Origin: Cyanobium sp. PLM2.Bin73
Lineage (GTDB): Bacteria > Cyanobacteriota > Cyanobacteriia > PCC-6307 > Cyanobiaceae
Reading direction: 5' to 3'
Length of the DNA: 63,728 nt
Assembly (NCBI GenBank): GCA_007694915.1
Contig: REEV01000071.1
Location: 1-63,728 of the forward strand
Shown: positions 1,048 through 16,494 of the stretch, in pieces
How positions within the stretch are numbered: position 1 is the first letter of the stretch
Layout of the letters: every line of letters begins with the position of its first letter
The notes under the pieces: generated by a model
Seen by the model: only the letters and a program-made list of their open reading frames with translations
Database searches by the model: none
Told to the model about the DNA's origin: nothing
Translations under genes and position numbers: made by a program

Positions 1048-1171
1048 GCTTGACCATGCACGCTTCCCCTATGTCTACCTCGACGCCACCTACCTCCACG
1101 GCCGCCTGGGCCGAAACATGCAGTTGGTGTCGCGGGCGGTGGTGGTGGCGATCGGCATCAATGCCCTCGGC
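1043..1171 (+). pseudogene. IS256-family (mutator-type) transposase fragment
   Basis: About 43 codons with no start encode LDHARFPYVYLDATYLHGR and then VSRAVVVAIGINALG, the conserved stretch around the first catalytic aspartate of IS256/mutator-type transposases. The fragment is bounded on the left by the ISAs1 relic. On the right it stops exactly at base 1171, where a 19-bp repeat begins. Both the N-terminal and C-terminal parts are missing, so it is inactive. Confidence 0.8.
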
Positions 1172-1219
1172 TGTCAGATGTCAATCAGGTAGAGCGCCTT
1201 TCAACCTGATTGACATCTG
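1172..1219. repeat. left 19-bp repeat plus inverted copy (palindrome)
   Basis: Bases 1172-1190 read TGTCAGATGTCAATCAGGT. Bases 1204-1219 are the exact reverse complement of 1175-1190, giving a 16-bp stem with a 13-base loop (1191-1203). The whole of 1172-1190 is also the exact reverse complement of 12348-12366, and 1201-1219 is identical to 12345-12363. The tip begins TGT, as many transposon ends do, and abuts the truncated IS256 fragment. Confidence 0.85.
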
Positions 1220-1509
1220 GATACGGCGCAGCGGGCTTGATCATCGCCCAGGGGGCCGGGGCAACAACCTGTGGCTGGTGGCAATCACTCCAGATCACAC
1301 CTGGTCATGAATCTCCAGAAGCTTCTGGTGCTTCATTATGTCTTTGTTGTTCCGTGCTGGAAGCTCTTGATCTCCGTTGCAAGCGCTTAGAGATTCAAAA
1401 GTGGGAGCTTGAGCGATCAACTGAGCAGAGCGTGAAGATCACTCACCAGCTACCCAGCCAATCCGGTATTGCAGCCTCCTGCCCAGGGCTTACCTTCTCA
1501 CGACTATTC
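1220..1509. other. intergenic, no recognisable gene
   Basis: I see no supported gene in these 290 bases. A short open frame crosses 1300-1509 but has no recognisable motif or start signal. The stretch lies just inside the left repeat and downstream of the minus-strand FkbM gene. It is probably decayed accessory DNA. Confidence 0.5.
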
Positions 1510-3120
1510 TTAAGCGTATTCGGACGGAAATACATACAAATCCACCCATCCAAGGCTGTCATGGTTTAATGACTTGGAATAATCCACAAAAGCGAGTGCG
1601 TGGCTGGCCTCAAGTGGTCGATTGAATACCTCTTCAAGTCTGCTGTTCCAAGGTATTCTAAGGGGCGCTTCGCATACTCTGAAATTACAGCATAGCCATT
1701 CTAGTTCATCAACAGCTGAGAAGCCTTGGCTCTCCATCCAGAAGGGCGCGAATTCGCATCGCAACATCCAGTGAGCATGCTGGCTGAGCCATTCGAAGCC
1801 AGATTTGATCACGTTGATATCAAAGCCTTGTGTATCAGACTTGATAAAAACTCTTCGTCCGTCTGAAATTGATGAGAGAATCTCATTCAGGCTGATAGTA
1901 GGCACCACTATCTGTTCCCAACCATGCTGCGCGCACACCCTGTTATCTTGCGTGGATTGAGGATTGATCCCCAGCGCAGAAACGCATTGGGTGCCTTGCG
2001 ATACCGCTGCTTGAATAACAACGCTCTCCAGCTCACCAATATTCTCCTTGAGATTTCTTTTTAAGATCCCGGTCAATCTAGGATCTGGCTCAATGGCGAT
2101 CACTTTCTTGGCTCCTAACCGCTTGGCTAGCAAGCTTGCTGTATAGCCATAGTTTGCACCAATATCTACGACTATATCCGGTGACAAGCGGTGGCGGATC
2201 AGCCTCCATAGCGGGGAAACACTGTCTTCCTTATGGCCCCGTTGGCGATAATGACCCCCACCTTTATCGATCGAATAAACTCTTAGATCAATCTCGTCGA
2301 TGCTGATCGTGCTTATGCCTTCTCCAATCTTGGCAAGTCTGATCCACGGCGAAGCTGTGCTGTCTGGTTCGCACGCCCCGAACCAGGAAGGGCGTTGACC
2401 TGAATGGAAACTATCATAAAATAATTCAGTATCTGCAAGTTGCCTTAGGCCTTCTGTTGAAGGACATTTAATCGCGTCGGGAATGGTGCAATCTAGATCT
2501 CTGCTTGCTTGGGTTGGGACAAAGAAAAGGTTTAGAGGGCCATGAATATGAATCAGCCGATATCCATGCGATTCCGCCAGCTCAGCAAGGGCAAGGAGTG
2601 ATGCGCCGTAGTCTTTGTTGCGTTGATATTGATGATCAGGATTGAATGCGAGACTCGCAGAGATGTTGGCTGGTATGTGGCAGTTGTATTCACAGATTAT
2701 CAGGCTTGGCCGTCTCTTTTGCAGAATTGCCAGCATGAACCAGTAGTCCATGCCATCCACATCGATCACGCAGACTGCTGGCGCTTCTGGCACCTCACAC
2801 TCGTCAAAGATCTGATTGATATTGAGAGGGCCGACGGATTGCTTGCGAAGGATCCATTTTCGATTGTCATTCCAGGGATGGCGAACTTCATTCTGTAGGG
2901 CCTCTGAATCGATGTTCAGCAGGCTGAATCCTCGAGATGCTGCGATGCGCCCTAGGGTGGCTCCGCCAAGTGTTCTTTGGCCAAACTCGACCAGAAACTT
3001 GGATTCTGGCTGCAACTGGTCTAGCAGGTGTGAAATGATGCCATCTTCTTGCGTGCCCGGGCCACTGCAAAACCTCAACAGTGGCAGGCTTTCCAGGTTT
3101 TTCTCAATGTAGGTGTTCAT
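1510..3120 (-). CDS. two-domain FkbM-family methyltransferase
   Basis: This predicted SAM-dependent methyltransferase probably modifies a sugar or glycan. The C-terminal domain has the FkbM fold signature: VVDIGANYGYTASLL near residue 317, AIEPDP near 340 and IKSDTQGFD near 423. The N-terminal part (about residues 10-200) looks like a second, diverged methyltransferase-like domain, with TQEDGIISHLLDQL, LVEFG near 40 and VIDVDGMDYW near 117. The ATG at 3120 is chosen because it overlaps the stop of the upstream gene (ATGA), implying translational coupling; the open frame runs 20 codons further upstream. Length is 536 residues. GC content is visibly lower than in the core genes to the right. 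The substrate is unknown. Confidence 0.8.
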   Translation of the reverse strand: MNTYIEKNLESLPLLRFCSGPGTQEDGIISHLLDQLQPESKFLVEFGQRTLGGATLGRIAASRGFSLLNIDSEALQNEVRHPWNDNRKWILRKQSVGPLNINQIFDECEVPEAPAVCVIDVDGMDYWFMLAILQKRRPSLIICEYNCHIPANISASLAFNPDHQYQRNKDYGASLLALAELAESHGYRLIHIHGPLNLFFVPTQASRDLDCTIPDAIKCPSTEGLRQLADTELFYDSFHSGQRPSWFGACEPDSTASPWIRLAKIGEGISTISIDEIDLRVYSIDKGGGHYRQRGHKEDSVSPLWRLIRHRLSPDIVVDIGANYGYTASLLAKRLGAKKVIAIEPDPRLTGILKRNLKENIGELESVVIQAAVSQGTQCVSALGINPQSTQDNRVCAQHGWEQIVVPTISLNEILSSISDGRRVFIKSDTQGFDINVIKSGFEWLSQHAHWMLRCEFAPFWMESQGFSAVDELEWLCCNFRVCEAPLRIPWNSRLEEVFNRPLEASHALAFVDYSKSLNHDSLGWVDLYVFPSEYA

Positions 3121-4442
3121 AGATCTGCACCCACCTTCACCATCACTGTTCCGCGGTTGGCTTGTGATAAAAGTTGCCAACCATGCTCAAGCAACCACGG
3201 CAATGCCAGCATTCCCTTGCCTGCCCATTGGTCATTCTCGAGCCAAGTGTCATCAAGTCCAAGAACCCCACCTATAGGCATGATTCTGGTGGCGTGCTGC
3301 GCAGCTTGAAAGTGCATCTGATGGCACTCCTGGTCATTGATTTGGGCCCCATAGTTTTTGAGGTAAGACTCCTGCCTGAGATCGGAGTGGCTGGCATGCC
3401 AGAAGTCGTAGGCATCGAGATAGCAAGCCGCAATTGGGTGTTGCCATGATGCCAACTCATCCTCACCCTTGCCTGCAATCCATTGAGTGCCAAGGCCGCC
3501 ATAATCACGTTTTAGGGCTGCAATATTGTCTTGATCCAGATCGATTCCAGCAAACGGCAAACCCATCTCCTTGGCCAGCGCGAGCAGTTGGGCCGTGCTG
3601 TTCTGCCCTTCGATGATTTCTCTGCTGCAGCCCACTTCCACAACCCACGGTTTCTCTCCACCCCAGCTACCCAGCAGCTCAGGCAGGCGTTCCTTGCAGA
3701 TCCTGATGAATTCGGCATGCCCATGGGCGCCTTTGCTCCCCAGGCATTGATTGATGCAATCCAGGTGATCGAGCAGGTTTGATCGATCCACCCCCAATGG
3801 ATCCGTTGCATCCTGCTGGTTAAGGACAACCAGCCCCATGGCATCTGCCAGCAAACTCGACCAGTGTTGATGCAAGTTCACAGCCGTAGCCCAGCCTATC
3901 GAGCCAGAGCTGGCGTCTTTCCAGATGTTGCTGGTGTTGGCTGCGGCAACAAGTTCACTGCAGAGGGTGAGGCAGTGCTCTGGTTTCAAGTCGTCCTGCT
4001 CTTTGAGGAGGCGTCTGAGGCCATAGGTGCCGGCTGTGAGCCGTTGCTCCCGCATCATCTCAAGAGAGGCACCCAGCAGTTGAGCCGCAGTGAGTGCTGA
4101 GGACCGGATCAGCTTGGTGCAGGCCTGCCAGCGTTCAAAGTCTTTCGTTTTCTGCACCTCCGGCTTGATCGCGGCATACACGAGCTGATCCCACACCCCC
4201 AGCTGCCCTTGTTCCTGTAGGTGGCTGATCAGCTGCTCCACCACGCCTTTGGTGCTCACCGATGCATTGCGCAACTGGGCTCGCCACAGCCGGATCCCCT
4301 CGGCATAGTTCAGGCCCCGCTGGATCCAGTCGCCGCCGCTTTCAGGCCCTTGGGGCTCCTCAGGCCAGGCTGGCAGCTGCACCCCCAGAACGGCCAGCTG
4401 CTCGGTGAGGGTAGAGCTGGTTAGCATTGGGGCCCGCAGCAT
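3117..4442 (-). CDS. class I SAM-dependent methyltransferase-like protein
   Basis: This 441-residue protein has a long helical N-terminal part (about 1-250) and a C-terminal Rossmann-like domain. That domain shows WVVEVGCSREIIEG near residue 265, GIDLDQDNIAAL near 297, and a late GGVLGLDDTWLEN segment, consistent with a class I methyltransferase. It overlaps the FkbM gene by four bases (ATGA), so the two are probably made together and may act on the same glycan. An alternative start is Met6 at 4427. The start codon lies against a plus-strand relic beginning at 4441. I do not recognise a specific subfamily. Confidence 0.6.
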   Translation of the reverse strand: MLRAPMLTSSTLTEQLAVLGVQLPAWPEEPQGPESGGDWIQRGLNYAEGIRLWRAQLRNASVSTKGVVEQLISHLQEQGQLGVWDQLVYAAIKPEVQKTKDFERWQACTKLIRSSALTAAQLLGASLEMMREQRLTAGTYGLRRLLKEQDDLKPEHCLTLCSELVAAANTSNIWKDASSGSIGWATAVNLHQHWSSLLADAMGLVVLNQQDATDPLGVDRSNLLDHLDCINQCLGSKGAHGHAEFIRICKERLPELLGSWGGEKPWVVEVGCSREIIEGQNSTAQLLALAKEMGLPFAGIDLDQDNIAALKRDYGGLGTQWIAGKGEDELASWQHPIAACYLDAYDFWHASHSDLRQESYLKNYGAQINDQECHQMHFQAAQHATRIMPIGGVLGLDDTWLENDQWAGKGMLALPWLLEHGWQLLSQANRGTVMVKVGADL

Positions 4443-4995
4443 GGTTCAAAGCATTCTCGCAGTGGACTCTCTAGCCTTCCAGCACACTCTCACCCGCCTT
4501 GAAGACCGCTACCGCGAGCTGAGCGAGTACGGCTAGATGCGCTCTGAGGCCTGGGACGCTGAGATCAGCGAGCTGAAGCAGCAGTTAACAGCCCGCAGCA
4601 TCAGGCAGATCATGCCACCTGTGGTGGGACTGGCGGGTGTTCGCTCGCACAGCTTCATTTGCCAGCCCACGGTGGTTTTCCGCCACTCGCTTGCGGTGCT
4701 GCTTGGCGGCTTCGATCGCCACTGGCGCACCGCGTTCGACTTCGATCACTGGCTGCGCACTATCGCCTCTACCCGCCACGATAATCTCCTGCCCAGTGGC
4801 TGCACACTTATGTTCTGGAACTGCAGCTCGGCCTCTCTGCCCACCAGCGTGACCATCTTCAACGCCTGCCCCCCTCTGGACCATGGCTGGAGACCACCGA
4901 GCTTGCTCTGTTTCACCGCGACCGACTGCTCGATACCAAGCAGGAGCAAGCCTCAGGGCCGACGGCCGAGCCCCACCGTTGGCTGAAGCAAGGGG
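4441..4995 (+). pseudogene. decayed copy of the coiled-coil + GT2 gene pair
   Basis: This is a collapsed duplicate of the gene pair at 5152-6896. It opens with MVQSILAVDSLAF and then LEDRYRELSEYG, matching the start of the coiled-coil gene, before a TAG stop at 4534-4536. The same frame continues as coiled-coil (EISELKQQL). From about 4618 it turns into the middle of a GT2 enzyme: RSHSFICQPTVVFRHSL and TAFDFDHWLR match RSHCFICQPTVVFRRTL and TAFDFDYWLR in the intact gene. After about 4780 the homology moves to another frame (LELQLGLSAHQRDHL) and ends near 4995. Large internal deletions, a stop and a frameshift make it non-functional. Confidence 0.8.
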
Positions 4996-5151
4996 CAAGG
5001 GAAGCTGATTGCTGTCTCCCCTGCCTGATCAAGTGGATCATCTGCATAATTGACCAAGTGCTTCTACCAGGACCGATCAGGCACAATGGCATAATTCTGG
5101 ACGAAAAACTTTGCTAAGTTTAGGCAGCCAATGGCAGCCTATCCATAGTTA

Positions 5152-5985
5152 GTGGTAAAGTCGTTGGAAATTCATAAAGCCGTGGATTCCCTCGCCATCC
5201 AACGTAGCCTTACCATCCTCGAAGACCGCTACCGCGAGTTGCGTGAGACAGGAGAGCAGCGCTTCAAGAAGTACGAAGAAGAGCTCTCATCCATCACAGA
5301 GCAACGCGATGGCCTTCAGCACGAACTCTCATCCATCACAGAACAACGCGATGGCCTTCAGCACGAGCTCTCATCCATCACAGAGCAACGCGATGGCCTT
5401 CAGCACGAACTCTCATCCATCACAGAACAACGCGATGGCCTTCAGCACGAGCTCTCATCCATCACAGAGCAACGCGATGGCCTTCAGCACGAACTCTCAT
5501 CCATCACAGACCAACGCGATGGCCTTCAGCACGAGCTCTCGGTCACCTCTGAGCAGCGCGATGCCCTCCAAACTGAACTCAATGCGACAAAAGACCAACG
5601 CGATGGCCTCCAGCACGACATCCAAGAGGCCAGGGAAGAAGGCGAACTTCTTCTTTTGCAGCTGCATCAAGTTCAAGAAGAACTTGAGCATAACTTTCTT
5701 ATGGCTCGCGATCTAGGCAACCAGCTCGACACACAATCGAGAAAGCTTTCGTGGTTACGGAGCCAACGGGAAGAACTGATGCAAGCCCTGCGTTCACAGC
5801 AGAGTCTAGTGCATAGAATTGCCGCACTAAACACACGTCTAGCCATATTCAGCAGAAGACAGTCACGCCAAAAGCCTGCAAGATCAGTTTTTTTTAGCAT
5901 TGGCCAGGGGCGCGGGAGGCCTAGAAAAGTTGCAACTAAATCACTCAAAAACAAGATTGCCGCACGCAAAACACTTAACAGTTGA
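5152..5985 (+). CDS. coiled-coil protein with 14-residue repeats
   Basis: This 277-residue, almost entirely helical protein has an N-terminal head (1-43) containing LEDRYREL. Eight tandem 14-residue repeats follow (about 44-155, type ELSSITEQRDGLQH), then a segment ELLLLQLHQVQEELEHNFL near 166, and a basic C-terminal tail. A second protein in the window (21079-21801) shares that last segment. The GTG start is chosen because it aligns with the ATG of the decayed copy at 4441. The stop overlaps the next gene's TTG start (TTGA), coupling it to a GT2 glycosyltransferase. A scaffold or partner role for the transferase is inference; no catalytic motif is seen. Confidence 0.75.
   Translation: MVKSLEIHKAVDSLAIQRSLTILEDRYRELRETGEQRFKKYEEELSSITEQRDGLQHELSSITEQRDGLQHELSSITEQRDGLQHELSSITEQRDGLQHELSSITEQRDGLQHELSSITDQRDGLQHELSVTSEQRDALQTELNATKDQRDGLQHDIQEAREEGELLLLQLHQVQEELEHNFLMARDLGNQLDTQSRKLSWLRSQREELMQALRSQQSLVHRIAALNTRLAIFSRRQSRQKPARSVFFSIGQGRGRPRKVATKSLKNKIAARKTLNS
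5281..5616 (+). repeat. eight in-frame 42-bp tandem repeats
   Basis: There are eight head-to-tail 42-base units. Units 1-6 are nearly identical and units 7-8 have diverged. Units 1, 3 and 5 use GAG at both variable glutamate positions, while units 2, 4 and 6 use GAA, with unit 6 changed to GAC at one. The real unit of recent expansion is therefore 84 bases. There are no spacers and the frame is kept throughout. Confidence 0.95.
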
Positions 5986-6896
5986 GCAAGTCTTCGCCAC
6001 CACCGAAGCCATCGGTCTCGGTCCTGATGCCCTGCTTCAACGCCCTGCCCTTCCTGGAAGCAGCAGTGCGCTCCGTTCTGGAGCAACCCGAGTGCCTGGA
6101 GTTGATCGTGGCCGATGGTGGCTCCAGCGATGGATCCCTCCAGGCCCTGGAAGCCCTGGCCAATCAGCATCCCCGTCGTCTGCGGCTGTTGCACGGCCCG
6201 GATAGCGGCCCCGCTGATGCCCTCAACCGGGCCCTGCGGCAGGCCCGTGGCACCCTGATCGGCTGGCTCAATGCCGACGACCTCTACCCACCACGGGCCA
6301 TTGGTCGAGCTGTCCAGGCCCTGGCCTGCCAGCCCAACTGGCTGATGGTGTATGGAGAAGGTGAGGAATTCGACTCGGACTCCGGCCAGCGCAGCCGCTA
6401 CCCCACCAAGCCCCCCGCCGCGGGATTGCACGGCTTCCGCTCCCACTGCTTCATCTGCCAGCCCACCGTTGTGTTCCGGCGCACCCTGGCGGCCCTGCTG
6501 GGCCCCTTCGACACCAGCTTCAAAACCGCCTTCGATTTCGACTACTGGCTGCGAGCCTTTGCCGCCTTCCCCGAGCGCATCGGCTTCATCCCCCACCTCC
6601 AGGGCCTCACCCGCCTCCATCACGCCACGATCACCAGTTCCCAGCGCCATCGAGTGGCCATCGAGGCCACCAGACTGCTGGCACGCCACTTCGGCCCCGC
6701 ACCAGCTGATCGTCTCAACGGCTACGGTCTGGAGCTCCAGCGTGGGCTGGCCGCCACGCCCCCCGGGATCGGGTTCAGGGAGCACCTGGAGAGCGTGTTT
6801 GCCGAGGCCGAACCCTGGCTCGATCCCAAGGCCCTCAGGGCCCTGCGCCAGCACTGGCTTCAGGGGCCAGAGCAGTCGGCCAGCCAACGCTGGTAG
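5982..6896 (+). CDS. family 2 glycosyltransferase
   Basis: This GT-A enzyme probably transfers a nucleotide-activated sugar during surface glycan assembly. VSVLMPCFNALPFLEAAV lies at about residues 12-29, the metal/nucleotide motif NADD near 97, and RSHCFICQPTVVFRR near 150. A family-specific helical C-terminal tail begins at YGLELQRGL near 246. The same tail is found in the GT2 half of the 7954-10431 protein and in the relic at 4441-4995. The probable start is TTG, overlapping the upstream stop by four bases. Length is 304 residues with no membrane segment. Donor and acceptor are unknown. Confidence 0.85.
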   Translation: MSKSSPPPKPSVSVLMPCFNALPFLEAAVRSVLEQPECLELIVADGGSSDGSLQALEALANQHPRRLRLLHGPDSGPADALNRALRQARGTLIGWLNADDLYPPRAIGRAVQALACQPNWLMVYGEGEEFDSDSGQRSRYPTKPPAAGLHGFRSHCFICQPTVVFRRTLAALLGPFDTSFKTAFDFDYWLRAFAAFPERIGFIPHLQGLTRLHHATITSSQRHRVAIEATRLLARHFGPAPADRLNGYGLELQRGLAATPPGIGFREHLESVFAEAEPWLDPKALRALRQHWLQGPEQSASQRW

Positions 6897-6919
6897 CGCT
6901 GACCCACCGGCCCGCATTG

Positions 6920-7957
6920 CTACTCCCGCAATTGGAGCGGGATCACGGGCTGAATATGGGGCAGCACCGCATCACTGAAATGGAATCCGATCTGGCGCAG
7001 GTAGCGGTGGGCCACCCAGTGGCCACACCAGGCAATCCAGGCGGCTTGTTCTGGATGAGCCTCGGCCCAGGCTACGGCGGTGTCCAGGTCGGAGAAGTCG
7101 GGCTCCACGGGGATGTAGTGCTTCCAGGGCTGCATCAGCCGGTAGTGATAGAGGGCCCGCTTATGGGGCGCCCGCAACACCAGGCAGCCGCGCAGATGCT
7201 TGAAGATCGTGCCCCAGGCCAGGGCGTTGCCGGGGATGTCTGGGTAATAGCGATAGTTGCCAAACGTTGATTCCTGCACCGGTGGCGCCAGGATGCCCGC
7301 GGTGTTCAGCCACTCCTTCGCGGCGCTGCTGAAGGCAGGATCCATCTGCACCACGCGGCTGATCTTGATGTTGCAAGCTTCATGGTTGCGATGGCGGAGG
7401 CTGATCTGCACGCGGGGATTGGCCTGTAGGCCCGCCACATCTTGAATCGACCCGCCCCGTTGCATTCCTGTGGTGCTGCCCCGCCAGAAGATCTGAGGCC
7501 TGCGCTTCTGCCAGCGCGCCAGAAAACGGGGGAACGCCATTGGCTTGCCGTATTTCTCCCGCTTCACTGCTGCCTGCATGGTGTAAAGATCGGGGATCAG
7601 GGCTGTCCAGTCCTGGCTATCCATTGATGGCATCCCCGCCTGGCCGCCATCGCACATCGAGAGGTTGAGGCTGTAGTCGCACCGGATGCGCTGATGCAGC
7701 TTCAGTAGCCATGGCAGCCAGGCGCGCAAGCATTGCTGCACCCGGATGGATTGGAGGGGGGGGAGGGTCTGAGCCATCCCCTGCGATAAGGCGATCTCCA
7801 GCTCCCGGGTTGGGCCTGCGCGCAGCGTGACGGTGACGGTGAGTCGGTGGCGGTCATCCTCGGCGGCCTTGAGACTCAGCTCAAGCCGCTGCTTCTCTGG
7901 CATGGCTGCCGCGAGCAGGGCGTGCCACTGGGGATCGATCTTCGAGGCGGTGGTCAT
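6920..7957 (-). CDS. glycosyltransferase family 90 (CAP10-like)
   Basis: This 345-residue enzyme carries the CAP10/KDELC signature. IFWRGSTTG lies near residue 154, YPDIPGNALAW near 236, and KHYIPVEPDFSDLDTAVAW follows. Family members transfer xylose or glucose onto glycans or proteins, in capsules of fungi and as protein O-glucosyltransferases in animals; bacterial members sit in polysaccharide loci. Its ATG overlaps the stop of the upstream GT2-GT4 gene (ATGA), so the pair is co-translated. It converges on the GT2 gene ending at 6896, with 23 bases between them. The actual sugar is not predictable from sequence. Confidence 0.85.
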   Translation of the reverse strand: MTTASKIDPQWHALLAAAMPEKQRLELSLKAAEDDRHRLTVTVTLRAGPTRELEIALSQGMAQTLPPLQSIRVQQCLRAWLPWLLKLHQRIRCDYSLNLSMCDGGQAGMPSMDSQDWTALIPDLYTMQAAVKREKYGKPMAFPRFLARWQKRRPQIFWRGSTTGMQRGGSIQDVAGLQANPRVQISLRHRNHEACNIKISRVVQMDPAFSSAAKEWLNTAGILAPPVQESTFGNYRYYPDIPGNALAWGTIFKHLRGCLVLRAPHKRALYHYRLMQPWKHYIPVEPDFSDLDTAVAWAEAHPEQAAWIAWCGHWVAHRYLRQIGFHFSDAVLPHIQPVIPLQLRE

Positions 7958-10431
7958 GGGTTCGGGGCTTGGCCTGCGTGGACATGGGCATGCAGGGCCT
8001 GCCGGTAGCGCTGCCCCGTGGCCGTGATGGCGAGATGTTGCAGTGCCGAATCCGTGCTGGCTGGGCTTGCTGGCCTGCAGATGGCTTGCCGAAGCTGTTG
8101 GACGGCGATGCTGAGATCTGGCTCCCCCCAGGTGTGGCCCTCCGCATGGGCATAGGCCCCTGGGTGGATGCGGGTGGGGGTGCAGGGCACAAGGTGAAAG
8201 TTCTCTCCCTGGCAGAAGTCCACGTTTCCCCCCCAGGCGCTGGCCACCACCTGCAGCCCCAGGATCCCCGCCTCGGCGATTCCCCGCCCGAAGCCCTCGC
8301 TGCGGTGCAGCGAGAGAAACACATCACAGCTGCCGATCAGGGCCAGGAGCTCGCTGCGGCTGAGGTCCGCCTCGATCACCTGCAGGCGCGGATCCTGGGC
8401 CGCTTGCTGCTGCAGCCGCTCCCACTGCGGATTGGCTGAACCCGGACGCAGCGCCTTGATCACCAGCTGCACGTTCTGCTGGCTGCCTTGCGGGAAGGCC
8501 TGCTGGAAGGCCTGAATCGCTCCCCAGGGGTTCTTGCGCTCCAGCGACGACTTCACGTCAAACACGAACAGCACCAGGGTGGCCTCAGGGTCGAGCCCCC
8601 AGCGTTCGCGGGTGGCGCGGCGGCGCCCTGGCGTGCGGAATTGCTCGGGGTGATCGATGTGCACCGCCATCGGCATCACCCGCAGCGGCCTGCTGACTGG
8701 ATCGCTGAAGGGTTCCAGCGCCTTGGCGGTGAAGGTGCTGGAGGGCCAGAGCCCGTCCGCCAGCGGAATCAGGCACTCCCAGGCCTGCGGCCAGGTCTGG
8801 GTTTCCCAGGGCCAGGCCACGATCGTGGTGCGGCCCCGCTGCTGCGCCAGCCCCTCCCGGGCGATCCAGGCGCCATGACTGGGCGCGGCCAGGCACACCA
8901 GGTTGAAGCGATAGGGGCCCAGCTCTCCTGGCGGCAGGGTGTGGGGCTCCAAGCTGCGGTCGCTGGCGGCGGCACCGTTGTTGGCGGGCACGTTCACCGC
9001 GCAATAGGGGACACCCGCGCTCTCCAGAGCAAGAGCGGCCATGCGCACGTCCTCGCCGATGCCGAACATCTCGAAGGCATGGCCGATCAGGTTCACCCCG
9101 AAGGGCCGCAGTTCCGGCGGCGCAGCCGGATCCTCCTCCCAGGGCTCAGCTTCCAGGATGCCCGCCGCCGTCAGGCGCAGATGTGGACAGCAGGCAGCAC
9201 CCTGCTCGGCCCACCAGCCGGCAAAGGCCTCCAACCCATCGGCTGGCGGGTAGCGCTGCTGCAGCGAGGGTTCCCCCAGCCAGTGGAGCAGTGCCACCAG
9301 CGGCACGCCCTCCACCGGCCGGTTCAGCAACGCAGTCAGTTCGCTGTCCTGTCGCAGCAGCCGATACTGGCTCCATAGTTCCGGACTCAGCAGGCGTTCG
9401 GCCAACCTCACATGCGGCCCCCAGGGGGAACCCAGCTGCAGGGCGCCCAGCTCGGGGTGCAACAGGTTGCGCAGCAGGGTGACACACCACAAGCGCTCCA
9501 GTCCCCCCTGTGCCAGCAGCTGCTCAGCCCGTTGCTGCCAGGGCCTGATCTGCGGATCGAGGCCCCAGCCCACCCGCAAACGCCGCCAGGTACCGGCATC
9601 GAAGCAAGGGCGGGCCTCCTCCAGCGCGGTCTCCAGTTCCTGGAGGGCGGTGGAGCCAACCGCCACCTGGGCTTCGCCCCGCTGCAGCTGCAGCCCGTAG
9701 CGATGCAGCAGCTCCCCAGGAGCCTGGCCCCAGCGCGCCGCCAGTTGCTCGGTCAACTCCAGGGCTCGCCGACGGCAGCGTCCCGGTTGCTGCCAGTCGC
9801 TGAGCTGGTGGGTGCGCACCCACACCTCCGGCACCACCACCAGCCGCTCACCGCAGCGCTCGAGGGCCTGCAGCAGCCAGAGCTCGCGGTAGCTGGCGGT
9901 GAGCTGCTCAGGCAGAGGGCCCAACAGAGCGCGCCGAGAGCGGTTCCAGCTGACGGCCCCTGGGCAGAGCAGCTGCTGCTCCAGCCGCTGGCCAAGCTCA
10001 GCGTCAGCGCTGAGGGTGTAATAGTCCCGCACACAGCTGCCGTCGCCATCCAGCTCCTCTCCTTCCCCGGCGATCAGAAGCGCTTCGGGATGCCGGGCCG
10101 CCACCTGCGCCCAGCTCTGGAGAGAGTTCTCCAGCAAGGTGTCGTCCGCCTCCAGCCACCAGATCCAGGGGCTCCGGGCCAGCGCCGCCGCCTGGTTGAG
10201 CGCCATTGCCTCTGTGGCCGGTTCCCCGCCAGGGTCCGAGATCCAGAGCAGCTGGGGATCCCTGGAGCAGAGCAAGGTCAACGCCTCGAACCCCTGCGAC
10301 GTGAGCTGCCAGGGCACCAGCTGGACCTCGATGGCCAGACCAGCGGCTCGCTGCGCTGCCCGGATGCTGGCCACAGTCGCGGCCAGACCAGTGGAGTGCC
10401 CGCAGCAGAGCAGCTGAACGGTCAGATCCAT
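7954..10431 (-). CDS. bifunctional GT2-GT4 glycosyltransferase
   Basis: This 825-residue fusion has two halves. Residues 1 to about 310 form a GT2-like half, with WWLEADDTLLEN near 90 and a tail RYGLQLQRGEAQ near 245 paralogous to the GT2 at 5982. The first GT2 motif is weak. From about 440 a GT4 half follows: FGVNLIGHAFEMFGIGEDVR near 444, VLFVFDVKSSLERKNPWGAI near 620, and the nucleotide-sugar motif HRSEGFGRGIAEAG near 707. The protein may add two sugars in succession, which is inference. The stop is coupled to the GT90 gene by a four-base overlap. It is divergent from the GT4-like gene that begins at 10545. Confidence 0.85.
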   Translation of the reverse strand: MDLTVQLLCCGHSTGLAATVASIRAAQRAAGLAIEVQLVPWQLTSQGFEALTLLCSRDPQLLWISDPGGEPATEAMALNQAAALARSPWIWWLEADDTLLENSLQSWAQVAARHPEALLIAGEGEELDGDGSCVRDYYTLSADAELGQRLEQQLLCPGAVSWNRSRRALLGPLPEQLTASYRELWLLQALERCGERLVVVPEVWVRTHQLSDWQQPGRCRRRALELTEQLAARWGQAPGELLHRYGLQLQRGEAQVAVGSTALQELETALEEARPCFDAGTWRRLRVGWGLDPQIRPWQQRAEQLLAQGGLERLWCVTLLRNLLHPELGALQLGSPWGPHVRLAERLLSPELWSQYRLLRQDSELTALLNRPVEGVPLVALLHWLGEPSLQQRYPPADGLEAFAGWWAEQGAACCPHLRLTAAGILEAEPWEEDPAAPPELRPFGVNLIGHAFEMFGIGEDVRMAALALESAGVPYCAVNVPANNGAAASDRSLEPHTLPPGELGPYRFNLVCLAAPSHGAWIAREGLAQQRGRTTIVAWPWETQTWPQAWECLIPLADGLWPSSTFTAKALEPFSDPVSRPLRVMPMAVHIDHPEQFRTPGRRRATRERWGLDPEATLVLFVFDVKSSLERKNPWGAIQAFQQAFPQGSQQNVQLVIKALRPGSANPQWERLQQQAAQDPRLQVIEADLSRSELLALIGSCDVFLSLHRSEGFGRGIAEAGILGLQVVASAWGGNVDFCQGENFHLVPCTPTRIHPGAYAHAEGHTWGEPDLSIAVQQLRQAICRPASPASTDSALQHLAITATGQRYRQALHAHVHAGQAPNP

Positions 10432-10544
10432 GAAGGCGTTCAGTGCTGATCTCCAGGCTCGGCAGGAGTTTTGACGCTAGGTCAGGCCGGTTCTCATCCT
10501 CTGCGACAGTGGCGTTCCAAGCAGCTGGCGGCACCGACAGGCTC

Positions 10545-11612
10545 ATGCGCATCGGGGTGATCGCTCAGGCGCCGGGTGGTCCCCTCACCAGTTCGGCCTG
10601 GATCCGTCTGCTGCTGCCGCTCCAGCGGCTTGAGCGGCAGGGTCTCTGCCAGCTGCACACGCTGCCCCCGCTCGCTGATCCGGCCAGCCCCGTGGAACTC
10701 CCGGAATCGCTAGATCGCCTGATCGTCCAGAGAAACGCTTGCCCCGCATTGCCCCAGGCCGCGGCGCTGGTGGCGGCCTGTCGGCAACGGAGAATTCCGC
10801 TCGTGTTCGATCTGGATGACGCGCTCTTCGCGTTGCCGGCCGACCATCCCGAGCGGCAGCAGTACGCCCCAGCGCTGCCCGCACTCGATCACCTGCTTGC
10901 TGAGGTTGATCTGCGGGTGTTCTCCACCCCCACCCTGGCGCGCCTGTGTCAGGAGCGGGCCAGCCTGCACGGCTATCGCGCCGGTCCCCAGACCCTGCTT
11001 GCCAACGGTCTTGATCTGGAGCTGTGGGGAGAGTGCCGCGGCTTCCCCCGCCGCAGTGGTGAGGAACCGCTCCGGCTGCTCTACGTGGGCACCACCACCC
11101 ACCAGGCCGACCTGGATCTGGTGCTGCCGGAGCTCGATCGCCTGGCAGGCCGTCAGCCGGGCAGCTTCCAGCTCACGGTGGTGGGCGGTGCGCCATCGCT
11201 CACTCCCCGACCCTGGCTGCAGGTGCGCAAGGTTCCGCTCTCCTGCCGGCGCTACCCACACTTCGTGCGCTGGTTACAGCGCCTGCCCCGCCACGACCTG
11301 GGCCTGGCACCGCTGGTGGCCAACCCGTTCAACGGGGCCAAGAGCAACCTCAAGCTGCTCGATTACGCCGCGCTGGGCCTGGGATGCCTCTGCTCACCGG
11401 GTCCGGCCTATGAGGCCGCGATCGTTGCCGATCTGGCACTCGCCGCTGAACCCTGGCAATGGGGAGAACGGCTGCGCTGGGCCGCCGCCCACCGCCCACA
11501 GCTGCGCCGGCTGGCCCAGGCTGCCCACCGCGAGTTGCGGAGCATCCACAACAGCGCGGTGATGGCGAGCGGCTGGCGCGCCATTCTCGAGGGAGCAACG
11601 GTTCAGGTCTGA
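10545..11612 (+). CDS. GT4-like glycosyltransferase
   Basis: This 355-residue GT-B fold enzyme has MRIGVIAQAPGGPLTSSAWI at the N-terminus, VFDLDDALFAL near residue 87, LLYVGTTTHQADL near 180, and NPFNGAKSNLKLLDYAALG near 260, the GT4 donor-binding region. The ATG at 10545 is chosen because it begins the Rossmann strand; the frame is open from 10443. The last third is clearly homologous to a broken gene at 12368-12580. It lies inside the 19-bp repeats. Substrate unknown. Confidence 0.75.
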   Translation: MRIGVIAQAPGGPLTSSAWIRLLLPLQRLERQGLCQLHTLPPLADPASPVELPESLDRLIVQRNACPALPQAAALVAACRQRRIPLVFDLDDALFALPADHPERQQYAPALPALDHLLAEVDLRVFSTPTLARLCQERASLHGYRAGPQTLLANGLDLELWGECRGFPRRSGEEPLRLLYVGTTTHQADLDLVLPELDRLAGRQPGSFQLTVVGGAPSLTPRPWLQVRKVPLSCRRYPHFVRWLQRLPRHDLGLAPLVANPFNGAKSNLKLLDYAALGLGCLCSPGPAYEAAIVADLALAAEPWQWGERLRWAAAHRPQLRRLAQAAHRELRSIHNSAVMASGWRAILEGATVQV

Positions 11613-11633
11613 GGCCGGCTCGCGCGCGCGGGG

Positions 11634-12215
11634 TCAGCAACTGGACGCGGCTTCGTCAGGATCACCAGTGCCCGGAGCCATCCAGCGGACAGATACTTGG
11701 CGGCGGCTTCGCTGGCCTCCAGGTTGGCCGGCCGGTCCCTGCTGCAGTAAGTGAGGCACCACAATCCGCGCAAGCATCCTGCAGAAGTCGTCCCAGCTGC
11801 GGTACCGGCTGGAACCATCCACCGTGGGCAGCGGCCTGCCGCAATCACGCAATCGGGTCAGGAAGCTGTGGCGATGCAGCCGGTAGCCCTCTCCCCGCTT
11901 GCCGCCATCGGCACAGCGGAGAAAGTAGAGAACCGCTTTGCCGCAGCAGTAGCGCTGCAGCCCGTGCCCCCGTACCCGCGGCCGGCTGATCCGCAGGGGT
12001 AGCTCACCGAGGAACCGACGCACGGCCATCACCGTGGCCAGCTCCCTGGCCTCCCACCAGCCTTCAGCGGAGCCAGCGTCCCCGGCCGTGGTGTGGATGA
12101 ACACTACCGGCCACTGCCCTGCGTCAAGCTGGCGGGCGGGGTGTTCGCCACGAAACAGCATCCAGTCGTCCTGGTGGTCCACCGCATACGCATGGAGCCC
12201 ATCGCGAGGAGCCAT
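11634..12215 (-). pseudogene. PIG-L-type deacetylase, C-terminally truncated
   Basis: The first 155 or so residues match the DHQDDW subgroup of PIG-L (LmbE-like) deacetylases. AVDHQDDWMLFRGE supplies the first metal-binding motif. VVFIHTTAGDAG and WWEARELATVMAVR, then VLYFLRCADG and TVDGSSRYRSWDDF, follow in the usual order. The third metal-binding motif (HxDH type) that should follow is absent. From about 11745 the frame runs into unrelated sequence (RSRRQVSVRW), so the enzyme is probably dead. Another frame there is open (EASEAAAKYLSAGWLRALV), perhaps the end of a second gene. Starts at ATG 12215 or GTG 12218 overlap an upstream stop. Confidence 0.65.
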
Positions 12216-12344
12216 CACAAAGCCACCCCCACCTTCCAGTCACGAGGGTCGTTGCAGCTCTGGTAGCTGGCATGGCAGGAGAAGGGCACATCGAACAGCT
12301 CCCCGAACACACGGGTGTCCGACGACAATCTGGTTAAGCACCCA
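12215..12344 (-). pseudogene. C-terminal gene remnant next to the right repeat
   Basis: An open frame reading in from the right repeat ends TGA at 12217-12215, overlapping the PIG-L start. It encodes SDTRVFGELFDVPFSCHA followed by SYQSCNDPRDWKVGVAL, which reads like a genuine protein C-terminus. I do not recognise the family. No start is present on the inner side of the repeat, so only a fragment remains. Confidence 0.35.
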
Positions 12345-12366
12345 TCAACCTGATTGACATCTGACA
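12345..12366. repeat. right 19-bp repeat
   Basis: Bases 12348-12366 (ACCTGATTGACATCTGACA) are the perfect inverse of 1172-1190. Bases 12345-12363 are identical, in direct orientation, to 1201-1219. The outer tip ends ACA, pairing with the TGT tip on the left. Glycosyltransferase homology starts at 12368, two bases after the tip. No matching target-site duplication is visible (CCTCGGC on the left, CTGCTCT on the right). Confidence 0.85.
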
Positions 12367-12367
12367 C

Positions 12368-12740
12368 TGCTCTCCCGAAACTGCCTATGACCAAGAGATC
12401 GCTGAAGGACTGGCACTCCCCGCCGCCCCCCACCGCTGGACACGAGAACTGCGCTGGGCCGAAGCCCATCGTCCAGCACTCTGGCGCCTGGCTAAGAGGG
12501 CCCAACTAGAGCTACTAGCCCGGTGCAACGCCGACACCATGTCCCACCAATGGCTGAGCGTTCTGACAGCCACAACAGCGTCTCGACCAAGAAAAAGAAC
12601 ATCTGCACGCCAATGCTCATCTCCAAGCCCTTGAGCAGGATGAAGATACAGAAAGCAGTCTCAATAGATTCGTTAAAGTGAACGAAGGTCACGCTCGGAT
12701 CCCTGCCATTGAACCAACCTCCACACTACGCCCGCCCTAA
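12368..12740 (+). pseudogene. 3' fragment of a GT4-like glycosyltransferase
   Basis: From 12368 the frame reads CSPETAYDQEIAEGLAL and then RELRWAEAHRPALWRLAKRA. It aligns without gaps to CSPGPAYEAAIVADLAL and RLRWAAAHRPQLRRLAQAA near the end of the intact enzyme at 10545-11612. Near 12560 the coding sense moves by one base into a charged helical tail (LDQEKEHLHANAHLQALEQ) that stops at 12740. Everything upstream of the CSP motif is missing, cut off at the right 19-bp repeat, so this is a dead fragment. Confidence 0.75.
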
Positions 12741-13002: not shown

Positions 13003-14043
13003 ATGAGCCTTACCCCTGAACAACAGATGTCTTTCGGCGTTCTAGCACTTTTTAAAAACGAAGCAGGCAATATTGCCGAATGGATAAACCATTACCTATC
13101 ACAGGGCGCCTCCAAGATCGTGCTGGTTAATAATGGCTCAGATGACGACTGGAGCGGACAGATCGGGGAGTCAAACGGGGCAGATATGGTTGAAGTCCTT
13201 CATGACAATCGCAAGCATGCTCAGGTCGATATCTATAGAGACGCCTTAGCTGGCAATAGATTTCCAAACGAGACATGGCTGTTGGTGTGCGATTTAGATG
13301 AGTTTGCCTATGCCAGATTTGGCTATGGAAATATCCACGATTACTTATCTCGCGCATCACTTAAGGGTGTCGGTGCTATAATGCTTCCTTGGAAAAGCTT
13401 TGGCTCATCAGGATTTAATAGACAGCCAAGAGGAGTACGCGAAAGTTTCCTTTACAGAGCGACGGCCCCATTCCCAGAGCCCCATCCAGGATACAGCAGG
13501 GGAAAGTACCTTTGTCGCATAGGCTACACTCATGATCTTTGCGTTCACCACCCAATCCTCAGGAAGGGCAAGTACATACTATCAACAGGGCGTGATATAT
13601 CCAGGCATTCAGACTTAATCAGGCTGGGCTATGTACCTAACAGCGAGAAGCAACAAGCATTAAGCGTACTACATTTAAATCATTATCCAGTTCAAAGCAG
13701 AGACTACTTTTTTAACATCAAGGCCAAAAGGGGAGATGCCTATTTCAAGACACCACGCCTGCAGACAAAAGACAATAGCTACTTTAACAAGTTTAACAAG
13801 AACGATGTTTTTGATGATGAGCTCTCACGTCTTACTGGCAAACAGACAAGTCGCCACAACCTTGAATCAAGCCAATATGAAGCTTTTAAAGCACTCTCAA
13901 AAAAAGATCACTTCATCAAGAAACAGCTCAGACTCGCCAAGCGAAGAGCAGTTATCGACACTGCCCAGTCAATAGGGTTTACGCTTAGCCTAAGCGATTT
14001 TATCAGCAGAGCTAGACACTGCGGGGAAACCACGTTAGAGTAA
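13003..14043 (+). CDS. GT92/GT2-like glycosyltransferase with Nif11-like tail
   Basis: The first 240 or so residues fit the GT92-like family of GT-A glycosyltransferases: FKNEAGNIAEWINHYLSQGA near residue 17, IVLVNNGSDDDW near 38, LVCDLDEFAY near 92 (the DxD-type metal site), and a conserved HLNHYPVQS near 224. The last 50 residues are different. SQYEAFKALSKKDHFIKKQL followed by AVIDTAQSIGFTLSLSDF resembles a Nif11 domain (the leader-like helix with the late Gly-Phe and Leu-Ser motif). It aligns without gaps to the small ORF at 17466-17681. The gene is AT-richer than its neighbours, suggesting recent transfer. What the tail does is unknown. Confidence 0.75.
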   Translation: MSLTPEQQMSFGVLALFKNEAGNIAEWINHYLSQGASKIVLVNNGSDDDWSGQIGESNGADMVEVLHDNRKHAQVDIYRDALAGNRFPNETWLLVCDLDEFAYARFGYGNIHDYLSRASLKGVGAIMLPWKSFGSSGFNRQPRGVRESFLYRATAPFPEPHPGYSRGKYLCRIGYTHDLCVHHPILRKGKYILSTGRDISRHSDLIRLGYVPNSEKQQALSVLHLNHYPVQSRDYFFNIKAKRGDAYFKTPRLQTKDNSYFNKFNKNDVFDDELSRLTGKQTSRHNLESSQYEAFKALSKKDHFIKKQLRLAKRRAVIDTAQSIGFTLSLSDFISRARHCGETTLE

Positions 14044-14132
14044 ACTTAAGGCTTTACCTTGGGCAGACTGCGGAAAATCCAGCTTGACTCCCCGAGACCA
14101 TGACGCTGTAATCACAGATTAGGACTGGGTTC

Positions 14133-14282
14133 ATGGGTAGCAAGCAGCTGGGGTTCGGCAATTACGAGCAGGTCATCGCCAAGAAACGCAGCAAGCGCCA
14201 GAAGTTCTCCGTCGACAGAAAGCTCCCTAAGAAAGAGGTGATCGCTTCCACCGCAGATGTTCTGAACGCTTCACGCCGATAA
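14133..14282 (+). pseudogene. IS5-family transposase N-terminal relic
   Basis: This 49-codon frame begins MGSKQLGFGNYEQVIAKKRS and continues KRQKF, the typical start of IS5-type transposases (MGGKQLGFSDYE... in intact relatives). After about 30 residues the similarity is lost and the frame stops at 14282. No DDE catalytic domain is left. The relic marks an old insertion between the glycan genes. Confidence 0.7.
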
Positions 14283-14709
14283 CATAGATGAAGATCGGCC
14301 TAATTCAGCTGAGAAGTCGCCCATGGTTTTCCACATGTATGAGCCTAAGCCTCGTCACCAACTCTTGTTTCAGGGGATGTTTCCTGCTCTTTGGCGGAAA
14401 GCTCTCTGGTGATAATCGCCTAGAATTCAATTGAAAGAGCAGAGATTTCTTCTTGAATACAGCCTAAGGCAAAATTTGGCGCTGTCTCTCTTCTGGCCTG
14501 AACGACACTAAAATCCTAGCAATACCAGAAGCTTACTTTTGCCTGGATGCTCGTAAGAGTAAATTGACGCAAATACGCCGTGGCATTGAGATTTGCCACG
14601 GGCTCCCACTGAAACCAGCCATATCATTCTCTGACAAGACTCACCAATAGTGCAATCAGTAGCAAGCAAGCAGACATCCCTAACTCACTGACTATCTCTC
14701 GTAAATAAT
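14283..14709. other. intergenic, AT-rich, no gene
   Basis: No open frame here has a recognisable product. The stretch contains one good inverted repeat at 14578-14601 (listed separately) and several AT-rich tracts. It lies downstream of the minus-strand gene ending at 14710. It is probably decayed insertion-sequence DNA plus a 3' untranslated region. Confidence 0.5.
14578..14601 (-). terminator. possible 3' stem-loop of the 14710 gene
   Basis: CCGTGGCA (14578-14585) pairs perfectly with TGCCACGG (14594-14601) around an 8-base loop. It lies 109 bases past the stop of the minus-strand gene. There is no run of T after the stem on either strand, so a classic intrinsic terminator is not shown. 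It may be an RNA-stabilising stem or part of an insertion-sequence end. Confidence 0.3.
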
Positions 14710-16494
14710 TCAGCCATGTGTCGAGGCACTTTCAGGAATGGGCAACGGCGTAAGAGGCCTACAGGCTGGAAAACCCTGTTCAGTCAGCACCTCGACAAGG
14801 ACGTTATACAAAGCTTGCCAGGGAAGACTGTAATTTACATAGCCAGTTGGAGTGCTAGAATCACTCCTGTCTTGCACCAGTCCTGGATCAATCTCACGGG
14901 TTTTGTGATGAATATGCTGTTGTTTTGCGGCCATCATTCGGCGCCCCATGTGGCCCACCCCTGGCTTACCGCAAATCCGTGCCACGTTGAGGGACCCAGT
15001 GGTGTAGTTTGCCAAGAAGGCATCCACCGCTAGCCCCACGCGAACTTTCTCCAACAGGGGCAAACCAGCGATGACTGCAACCCTGCCACGGCTGCGAAAG
15101 TGCAATTTGCGAATGATGCGCTGAATCACCCGGTCATCTCGACGGGCTTCCCTGCGGTGGTAGTCGGAAGTCACCAGCGGCGGAGTCCAGCCATCGAACA
15201 CCACCCCCATCGATGGGAACAACTCATGCAAGGCATTCAGGAGAGCGGCCGTGCCCTCCACCTGTTCCAACCAGCTGCGTTTCTGACCCGTGATGCCCAC
15301 CCAAAGCAAAGGCCTGCAGCGCTGGAGGGCCTCCAAATGGCCATGGGCGGCCAGCTCAGAGGAGCTGAGCGCGAGCTCGCGCAAGGGCCCATCCACGGCT
15401 GCCGCAAGTCGGCGCATCGCCGGCTGGTCGGCCCGAGTGTGGAACAGGAACCCCAGTTGCAGGAGATAGCAACCTTGGTTCTGACTGAGGGCATTGAGCT
15501 GCTCCAAGCTGTGACGTTGGTGGGTCATGCCAAGGCCAAGGGCGGCGCTGAGGTCGACAAAGGCTTCATCCGCCTTGGAATACAGGGCATCGCCGGTACC
15601 CAACTCGCCCGCCTCCAGCACAGACTGCAGGCCTAACAAACTGTCGTACAAACAGTGATATGGACGCGAATGCCCCACCAAGAACCCGCCAAAAGTGGCT
15701 GGAGTGGTAGCCATAAGAAACTCGGGTGTACGACAGAGTATTCGCAAACAGTCCCCCACTCGTTGGGCGTCAAGATGGCAAACCAACACCATCAGATTGA
15801 GCCCTGGCAGGAGGATGGCATCACTGCTGCTCACCCCCTGAAAAACGAGAAACCGCTGCTCCCCCTCCTGGATCAGGAGCAGGTTCCAGTTGAGTACCAA
15901 TCGGCTTGCCAGCACGGTGCCATCGTCTACGCCCAGCACACTCGGAAAACGACCCCGATGGCGCAGCCGAGCCGCCTCCACCACCAGTTGCTCACTGGCA
16001 GCATGGTCACAAAAGTAAGCCAGTGCCGGTGGCTTGCTGGCAGAGGACATCACATGCACCGCCCCCAGAGCTGTATTGGCAATCCGCCCAAGCTCTGCTG
16101 ATGGAAGCGTAGAGGCCTGGCCCGAAAAGAAGCTCTGCCACTGCTGCTGTTCCTCTGCTTCTGTGCGAAGAATACGCAGTCGTAGGCACAGCCGCCGATG
16201 GCGCTCTGTGCCGAGCCATAAATCCAGAGTGCTGCCTAGGTCGGCCACAGCCAGCCGACCACGAAACGCCAGCTCTTGATCTTGTGCATGGAGAGTCCAG
16301 ATCCAGCGACTCAACTCGCTGACCAGCTCCAGGTTGAGCGGGAGATGATGGTGGAGGGCGAGATCAGGGTTACCTGTGGAGGCACTCAGGCGCCCAGCCA
16401 ACTCCACCTGCTCATCCTGCACCTCCAACAAGTCGACCGAGGCGATCACACCAAAGCCGTCTTCGGCTCGCCAGTCCACCACTTCAACCTGCAT
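14710..16494 (-). CDS. unknown 594-residue protein of the glycan locus
   Basis: I do not recognise the family. No signal peptide or membrane segment is evident. The C-terminal half has features reminiscent of a GT-B transferase: LLWVGITGQKRSWLEQVEG near residue 400, FPSMGVVFDGWTPP near 428, AVIAGLPLLEKVRVG near 470, and NYTTGSLNVARICGKPGVGH near 490. These resemble nucleotide-sugar or glycan-transferase loops but carry no diagnostic motif. The N-terminal half, with many beta-strand-like stretches, is unlike anything I know. It starts 70 bases from the divergent methyltransferase gene and lies among glycosyltransferases, so a role in the same glycan is likely. That is inference. Confidence 0.5.
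   Translation of the reverse strand: MQVEVVDWRAEDGFGVIASVDLLEVQDEQVELAGRLSASTGNPDLALHHHLPLNLELVSELSRWIWTLHAQDQELAFRGRLAVADLGSTLDLWLGTERHRRLCLRLRILRTEAEEQQQWQSFFSGQASTLPSAELGRIANTALGAVHVMSSASKPPALAYFCDHAASEQLVVEAARLRHRGRFPSVLGVDDGTVLASRLVLNWNLLLIQEGEQRFLVFQGVSSSDAILLPGLNLMVLVCHLDAQRVGDCLRILCRTPEFLMATTPATFGGFLVGHSRPYHCLYDSLLGLQSVLEAGELGTGDALYSKADEAFVDLSAALGLGMTHQRHSLEQLNALSQNQGCYLLQLGFLFHTRADQPAMRRLAAAVDGPLRELALSSSELAAHGHLEALQRCRPLLWVGITGQKRSWLEQVEGTAALLNALHELFPSMGVVFDGWTPPLVTSDYHRREARRDDRVIQRIIRKLHFRSRGRVAVIAGLPLLEKVRVGLAVDAFLANYTTGSLNVARICGKPGVGHMGRRMMAAKQQHIHHKTREIDPGLVQDRSDSSTPTGYVNYSLPWQALYNVLVEVLTEQGFPACRPLTPLPIPESASTHG

Follow-up and report, generated by a model that had tools for sequence, protein, structure and literature searches.

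The window analysed here is a stretch of 63,728 nucleotides of Cyanobium sp. PLM2.Bin73 (contig REEV01000071.1). Its first 1048 positions hold, on the forward strand, an ISAs1-type transposase relic whose frame is broken by stops. The relic is 86% identical over 1-1048 to DNA of a related genome (G009), reaches 23.9 bits with DDE_Tnp_1 (cut-off 23) and stays with 62.7 bits under the cut-off of 70 for the NCBIfam ISAs1 model. It is followed on the same strand by a fragment of an IS256-type transposase gene (1052..1171), with 21.3 bits for Transposase_mut (cut-off 21) and 22.8 bits for the IS256 model, below the cut-off of 150. Window positions 1052-1172 are 95% identical to another contig of the same genome (C73). 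The IS256 homology stops at 1171, as the first-pass annotation had proposed, and there the first of two 51 bp palindromes begins (1172..1222). That annotation had also stated that no transposase lies further inside, which is wrong: at 1301..1432, again on the forward strand, we found the C-terminal relic of a DDE_Tnp_1_2-type transposase. Over 44 amino acids and with one stop it is 57% identical to the C-terminus of such a transposase in G011, a genome of the same genus, and the DNA at 1300-1445 is 75% identical to 18 places in G011 among the matches listed. To judge from these matches, the left boundary is a transposon graveyard made up of ISAs1, IS256, the palindromic element and a further transposase relic.

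Further to the right lie two genes at 1510-3180 and 3117-4442 and, within 5152..11612, genes for a coiled-coil protein, GT2, GT90, GT4 and a GT4-like protein. The whole interior had been described as eight glycan genes or relics. A Pfam scan of eight inside open reading frames other than the coiled-coil frame 5152-5985 bears this out for four of them, which score above the cut-off for glycosyltransferase or FkbM methyltransferase families; one frame scores below the cut-off and three are without a match. The relic open reading frame 11634-12218 has no match in Pfam and NCBIfam. The second palindrome lies at 12316..12366, and a glycosyltransferase C-terminal fragment (12368..12580, forward strand) begins at it, also as first described. 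The 71 amino acids of this fragment share 45% identity with the C-terminus of the protein encoded by 10443-11612, and over 66 amino acids the fragment is 38% identical to a gene product of G006; Pfam gives no match of the fragment's own. At 14059-14419 the window contains repeat fragments which match many places in the genomes of the genus and are probably transposon relics.

Two palindromes with IS21-type tips

The 19 bases at 1172-1190 recur without a mismatch, in inverse orientation, at 12348-12366. This observation of the first reading stands, and with up to three mismatches allowed such a pair is expected by chance with a mean of 0.00 (100 shuffles of the window). It had been overlooked, however, that the repeats are parts of palindromes. 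The 19-mer has a third match in the window at 1204-1222, on the other strand and with three mismatches, and the right 19-mer has a partner arm of its own, an imperfect one, at 12316-12335. Each 19-mer is the outer arm of a separate 51 bp palindrome, 1172-1222 and 12316-12366. The left palindrome is nearly perfect save for its decayed final bases: its left arm is intact and its right arm ends in CTGGAT where CTGACA is expected. The right palindrome is imperfect. As single-stranded DNA the left element is predicted to fold with -17.2 kcal/mol (z -6.6; none of 200 shuffles equally good) and the right element with -7.7 kcal/mol (z -2.7; two of 200 equally good). Neither contains a transposase gene. 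In the draft assembly of the organism itself (137 contigs) we found three matches to the 19-mer with up to three mismatches, all inside the window. Since any two copies of a palindrome yield an inverted repeat, the 19-mer pair is no evidence for a cassette, and scans for cassettes by inverted repeats can mistake such elements for cassette ends.

The tips of the palindromes are found on a complete insertion sequence of the same genus. G011 carries an element with IstA (202.5 bits with the NCBIfam IS21/IstA model, cut-off 160) and IstB (253.2 bits, cut-off 200) in five copies, of which one is interrupted. Its left tip (LE) starts with TGTCCCGTGTCAATCAGGTTGA and its right tip (RE) with TGTCCGGCGACAATCTGGTTGA; in both, the motif is repeated 22 bp inward, with a single change in the repeat of the right end. 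Two of the copies are flanked by 6 bp target duplications (AAACCC and CAGCTC). The right window element, read on the forward strand, consists of an RE-type tip (20/22 positions identical), 7 nt and an LE-type tip (19/22), with the tips pointing outward. Both arms of the left element, likewise read on the forward strand, are nearer to the LE than to the RE type, with 18/22 and 16/22 matches to LE. An LE/LE-like element is not what interior deletion of an IS21 alone gives, which would be LE/RE. Four sister elements from relatives match the IS21 tips at 22/22 and 21/22 positions. Between the tips of the window elements there is neither istA nor istB, each element being 51 bp from tip to tip. In taking the 19-mers for ends of transposable, non-autonomous DNA the first reading was right, as the tips match a complete IS21 and sister elements carry target duplications (see below). 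IS256 as owner of the repeats was rejected, the tips being of the IS21 type. G011 also contains a 72 bp relative of the miniature elements (L022, 3001-3072) with the TGTCAGATGTCAATCAG tip variant that occurs in the window.

A possible source of transposase was searched for in the genomes which carry the elements. The own genome has another IS21 on contig C73, which differs in its tips, is flanked by the duplication GCCAGT and encodes an IstA with 53% identity to the G011 protein. Neither an IS21 with the tips of the palindromes nor the second insertion sequence described below (IS-X) was found in the own draft assembly. The IstA search covered the nine genomes with the 51 bp pattern and left out G035 and G227; none of the nine has a complete IstA more than 53% identical to that of G011 (G000 and G006 53%, G092 fragments, the other six none).

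The miniature elements form a small family, two members of which come from records titled Synechococcus sp. BO 8801 and a Cyanobium MAG. Altogether we count 13 elements with lengths of 51, 52 or 58 bp, spread over 11 of the 400 Cyanobiaceae genomes: two in this window, two in G273 and one in each of nine other genomes. The fixed-length pattern, which finds only 51 bp forms, matched with up to three mismatches in nine of the 400 genomes and six of 59 genera, and the reversed control gave no match. A pattern whose spacer could vary over 30 positions matched at ten places in nine of the 400 genomes (seven of 51 bp, two of 52 bp and one of 58 bp); another variable-spacer search matched in four of 400 genomes, and a separate search, not of this type, in four of 197. 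All variable-spacer searches used exact cores. Among genome contigs, such a search returned two stretches, one from G092 and one which by its element and flanks is that of G310, and among the viral contigs searched for the element there were no matches. The count of 13 comprises the elements of both searches and the left window element. From G011 it leaves out the 72 bp element and the ends of the IS21, and it further omits the lone G008 tip, single 19-mer matches in G001, G002 (twice), G003 and G005, and right tips that are single or filled by IS-X.

Perfect duplications of 5-6 bp surround four of the 13 elements, namely those of G092, G273 (both elements, G273a and G273b) and G225 (GCCAAC, GGGTG, ACCGAC and GGAGCT); at the other nine, both window elements included, the duplication is 0-2 bp. 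Three such duplications among 12 sites have a chance probability of about 2e-7 if equal base use is assumed. In G225 the element breaks a zincin-like gene, its sole family match being Pfam MPTase-PolyVal in the part ahead of the element. Homologues of this site in G225 itself, G251, G273 and G208 are uninterrupted; the copy with the element exceeds them in length by 57 bp (51 + 6). Element G273a lies where a clpB gene ends (ClpB_D2-small), the two elements of G273 lie 11.1 kb apart with a duplication each, and in G009 a transposase fragment (rve) begins at an element. By their flanks and duplications the sister elements look like insertions and not like fixed recombination sites.

It had been proposed to search the 19-mer genome-wide and in relatives for copies that bound different gene sets. 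Copies do exist in relatives, but each genome has no more than one or two of them. Seven sites were compared, the two of the window and five others, and they have no common gene surroundings: their flanks are non-homologous save for a short match to an ISAs1 end between the flank of the left element and that of the G009 element. The related idea that the repeats are sites for an Xer- or invertase-like recombinase swapping surface-glycan genes could draw on the position of the palindromes beside glycan genes. In G008 (L025, near 3001), moreover, the lone tip, with one mismatch to the window 19-mer, lies between an open reading frame which by eye resembles a glycosyltransferase and another open reading frame. 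Among the sisters, however, one breaks up a zincin-like gene and another the end of clpB, and they are flanked by duplications as insertions are. In our view such a role as recombination sites is extremely improbable.

The 11.2 kb between the elements

The two 19-mers had been read as the ends of one 11.2 kb cassette. What lies here is a pair of 51 bp elements, each 19-mer being half of its own palindrome, and the cassette reading is not supported. No duplication surrounds the 11.2 kb: CCTCGGC precedes 1172 and CTGCTCT follows 12366, so that the absence of a target duplication noted earlier at the outer ends holds. A clean site in which the two outer flanks are joined, proposed as a check, was not found in the relatives, and among the matches in 13 genomes of the genus there is no second copy of the whole stretch.

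Gene order in two relatives bears on the right boundary. In G005 a single 18.6 kb contig carries homologues of the inside genes for the coiled-coil protein (34%), GT2 (69%), GT90 (65%), GT4 (64%) and the GT4-like protein (63%) together with homologues of two outside genes, 14710-16494 (59%) and 13003-14043 (40%), the latter lying among the inside genes. In G006 two inside genes stand beside the homologue of 14710-16494. With up to three mismatches the element is absent from both loci; G005 has a tip on another contig only and G006 has its element about 93 kb away. Both genomes are distantly related, their longer matches having about 65-72% DNA identity, and the gene order is not the same throughout. 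As far as this synteny can be read, the right boundary is contradicted, which applies to the 12366 side. The inside genes 1510-3180 and 3117-4442 have no match in the G005 or G006 locus, so that synteny is silent on the left boundary. At the end of the G005 locus (L061, 15747-18163), next to the coiled-coil gene, there are likewise an IS256 gene (363.7 bits against a cut-off of 150) and a transposase gene of the DDE_Tnp_1 type.

One could still imagine a composite transposon in which IstA and IstB, acting in trans, use the outer tips at 1172 and 12366 and move the 11.2 kb in the manner of the Tn3-derived TIME-COMPs. The outer arms are indeed the best preserved ones and identical over 19 bp, and PMC10122671 reports IstA activity in vitro on left ends alone. 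TIME-COMPs of more than 10 kb are reported in PMC13367494, which also describes IMU-bounded ones without flanking repeats that were mobilised in trans. However, the outer tips are not surrounded by a duplication, the two flanks come from different genes, in both G005 and G006 genes from within the stretch share an element-free locus with genes from outside it, and the stretch has no second copy among the matches in the 13 genomes. The G273 pair, 11.1 kb apart and with separate duplications, further demonstrates that such a spacing arises from independent insertions. Movement as a composite transposon is therefore very unlikely, and the 11.2 kb between the elements is probably not a mobile unit. 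This removes the tempting but unsupported model of a swappable glycan cassette.

We consider it likely that the window contains two independent 51 bp elements with IS21 tips and a missing interior, that DNA adjacent to them was later lost, and that the 11.2 kb is ordinary DNA. The elements would be the tips of an IS21-family insertion sequence without its interior. Both would have arrived independently in a region rich in transposon relics and glycan genes. Later, DNA next to each element would have been lost, so that each now abuts a truncated gene and no duplication is left; most simply, each would have inserted into its gene, the IS256 gene on the left and the glycosyltransferase gene on the right, and the far-side DNA of the broken gene would then have gone. 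The decay in the right arm of the left element would fit such an adjacent loss. Several observations count against this explanation. Among them are the lack of an IstA close to that of G011 in the nine genomes searched, the LE/LE-like arms of the left element, the silence of synteny on the left boundary and the two repeats per end that IstA is reported to need (see below). Neither window element has a duplication, and transposition is thus not seen at this locus itself. Both outer flanks are truncated genes, which under independent insertion must be a coincidence. Finally, one or two copies per genome are few for an active miniature element.

Mobile form, excision scar and known systems

The right-tip sequence CGACAATCTGGTTGAG occurs at 45 places in 26 of 400 genomes, and we looked at 30 of these loci. 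It flanks IS21, the 51 bp elements and also a second insertion sequence, IS-X, whose product scores 25.4 bits with the rve domain (cut-off 32.6) and 27.8 bits with IS481 (cut-off 224), in both cases below the cut-off. IS-X is present in 15 of 141 genomes of the family, two of which (G006 and G035) carry a 51 or 52 bp element. Such tips enclose it in either orientation (L152 versus L153), and in L167 it lies between the two repeats of a C73-type IS21 end; a tip-bounded copy in G100 is flanked by the duplication CTCATG. Copies outside such tips are found in L154 and L168. The 51 bp elements may thus derive from IS21 directly or through IS-X.

Two further observations concern IS-X itself. It sits inside IS21-type terminal repeats in L152, L153, L148, L156 and L167, copies that differ among themselves in orientation and in tip family, and may prefer IS21 ends as targets, although L154 and L168 lie elsewhere. 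The IS21 of G011 (L021) and the tip-bounded IS-X of G100 (L146) have nearly the same 22 nt tips at both ends and different transposases.

How the interior came to be missing may be answered in two ways. Either the 51 bp form itself is moved in trans by IstA and IstB, or complete elements inserted, which left the duplications, and the interior was then lost by slippage across the foldback ends with about 51 bp left behind. The remnant of the "nearly precise excision" of Tn10 is comparable. Excision scars would agree with the one or two elements per genome and with the several different junctions (G273a, G226, G227 and G035), and a transposase-bearing element with such tips and a 6 bp duplication exists in the IS-X of G100. 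They would also agree with the structure of the ends. PMC10122671 reports that purified IstA requires two complete direct repeats at each end, and PMC11208146 calls at least two repeats per end typical. The 51 bp elements have one terminal repeat per end (L1 and R1), and we infer that 51 bp of DNA can hardly loop into a paired-end complex. The single repeat per end and the presumably poor looping favour scars. On the other hand, the elements of G006, G092, G225 and G310 lie at different loci, in several genera, and have a near-identical spacer (GAGCGCCCATC or GAGCGCCCGTC); two of these elements carry duplications. Such a recurrence is easier to understand if the 51 bp form moves. We hold excision scars to be a quite possible, if tentative, route to these elements and lean slightly towards movement of the 51 bp form in trans.

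A count on the tip sequences places the inverted R1 core at positions 30-43, and in a full element L2 would lie at 31-44. Each end could accordingly borrow the repeat of the other end as its missing second IstA site, and the 51 bp form would then be a complete, mobile minimal IS21. It would then be understandable that different junctions arrive at the same 51-52 bp. The idea would conflict, however, with the reported need for two direct repeats, and we regard it as rather doubtful. In any case the analysis exposes very short IS21-tipped elements in picocyanobacteria, against which the published two-repeat requirement of IstA can be tested.

REP and REPIN sequences are short palindromes of high copy number that go with a RAYT gene. 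The elements described here are short palindromic sequences as well, but they are not of high copy number, with three matches in their own genome, all in the window, and some of them have target duplications. With the TIME-COMPs, as described in PMC4133298 and PMC13367494, the window shares two miniature elements which flank a segment of DNA. Unlike in the TIME-COMPs, there is no duplication around the 11.2 kb, no second copy was seen, and genes from both sides of one boundary stand together in two relatives. Bacterial MITEs are a further relative in form, as they have terminal inverted repeats, no gene, duplications at some copies and the tips of a known insertion sequence. MITEPsy1 is 100 nt long (PMC3189936); our elements differ in being about half that size and present in one or two copies per genome. 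Among the matches listed in a search of the open-access literature we found no IS21-derived MITEs. Compared with the IS21 family, finally, the elements have neither istA nor istB, carry one repeat per end instead of two and measure 51-58 bp against about 2.6 kb, yet their tips match both ends of a complete IS21 of the same genus and the 5-6 bp duplications of the sisters are like its 6 bp.
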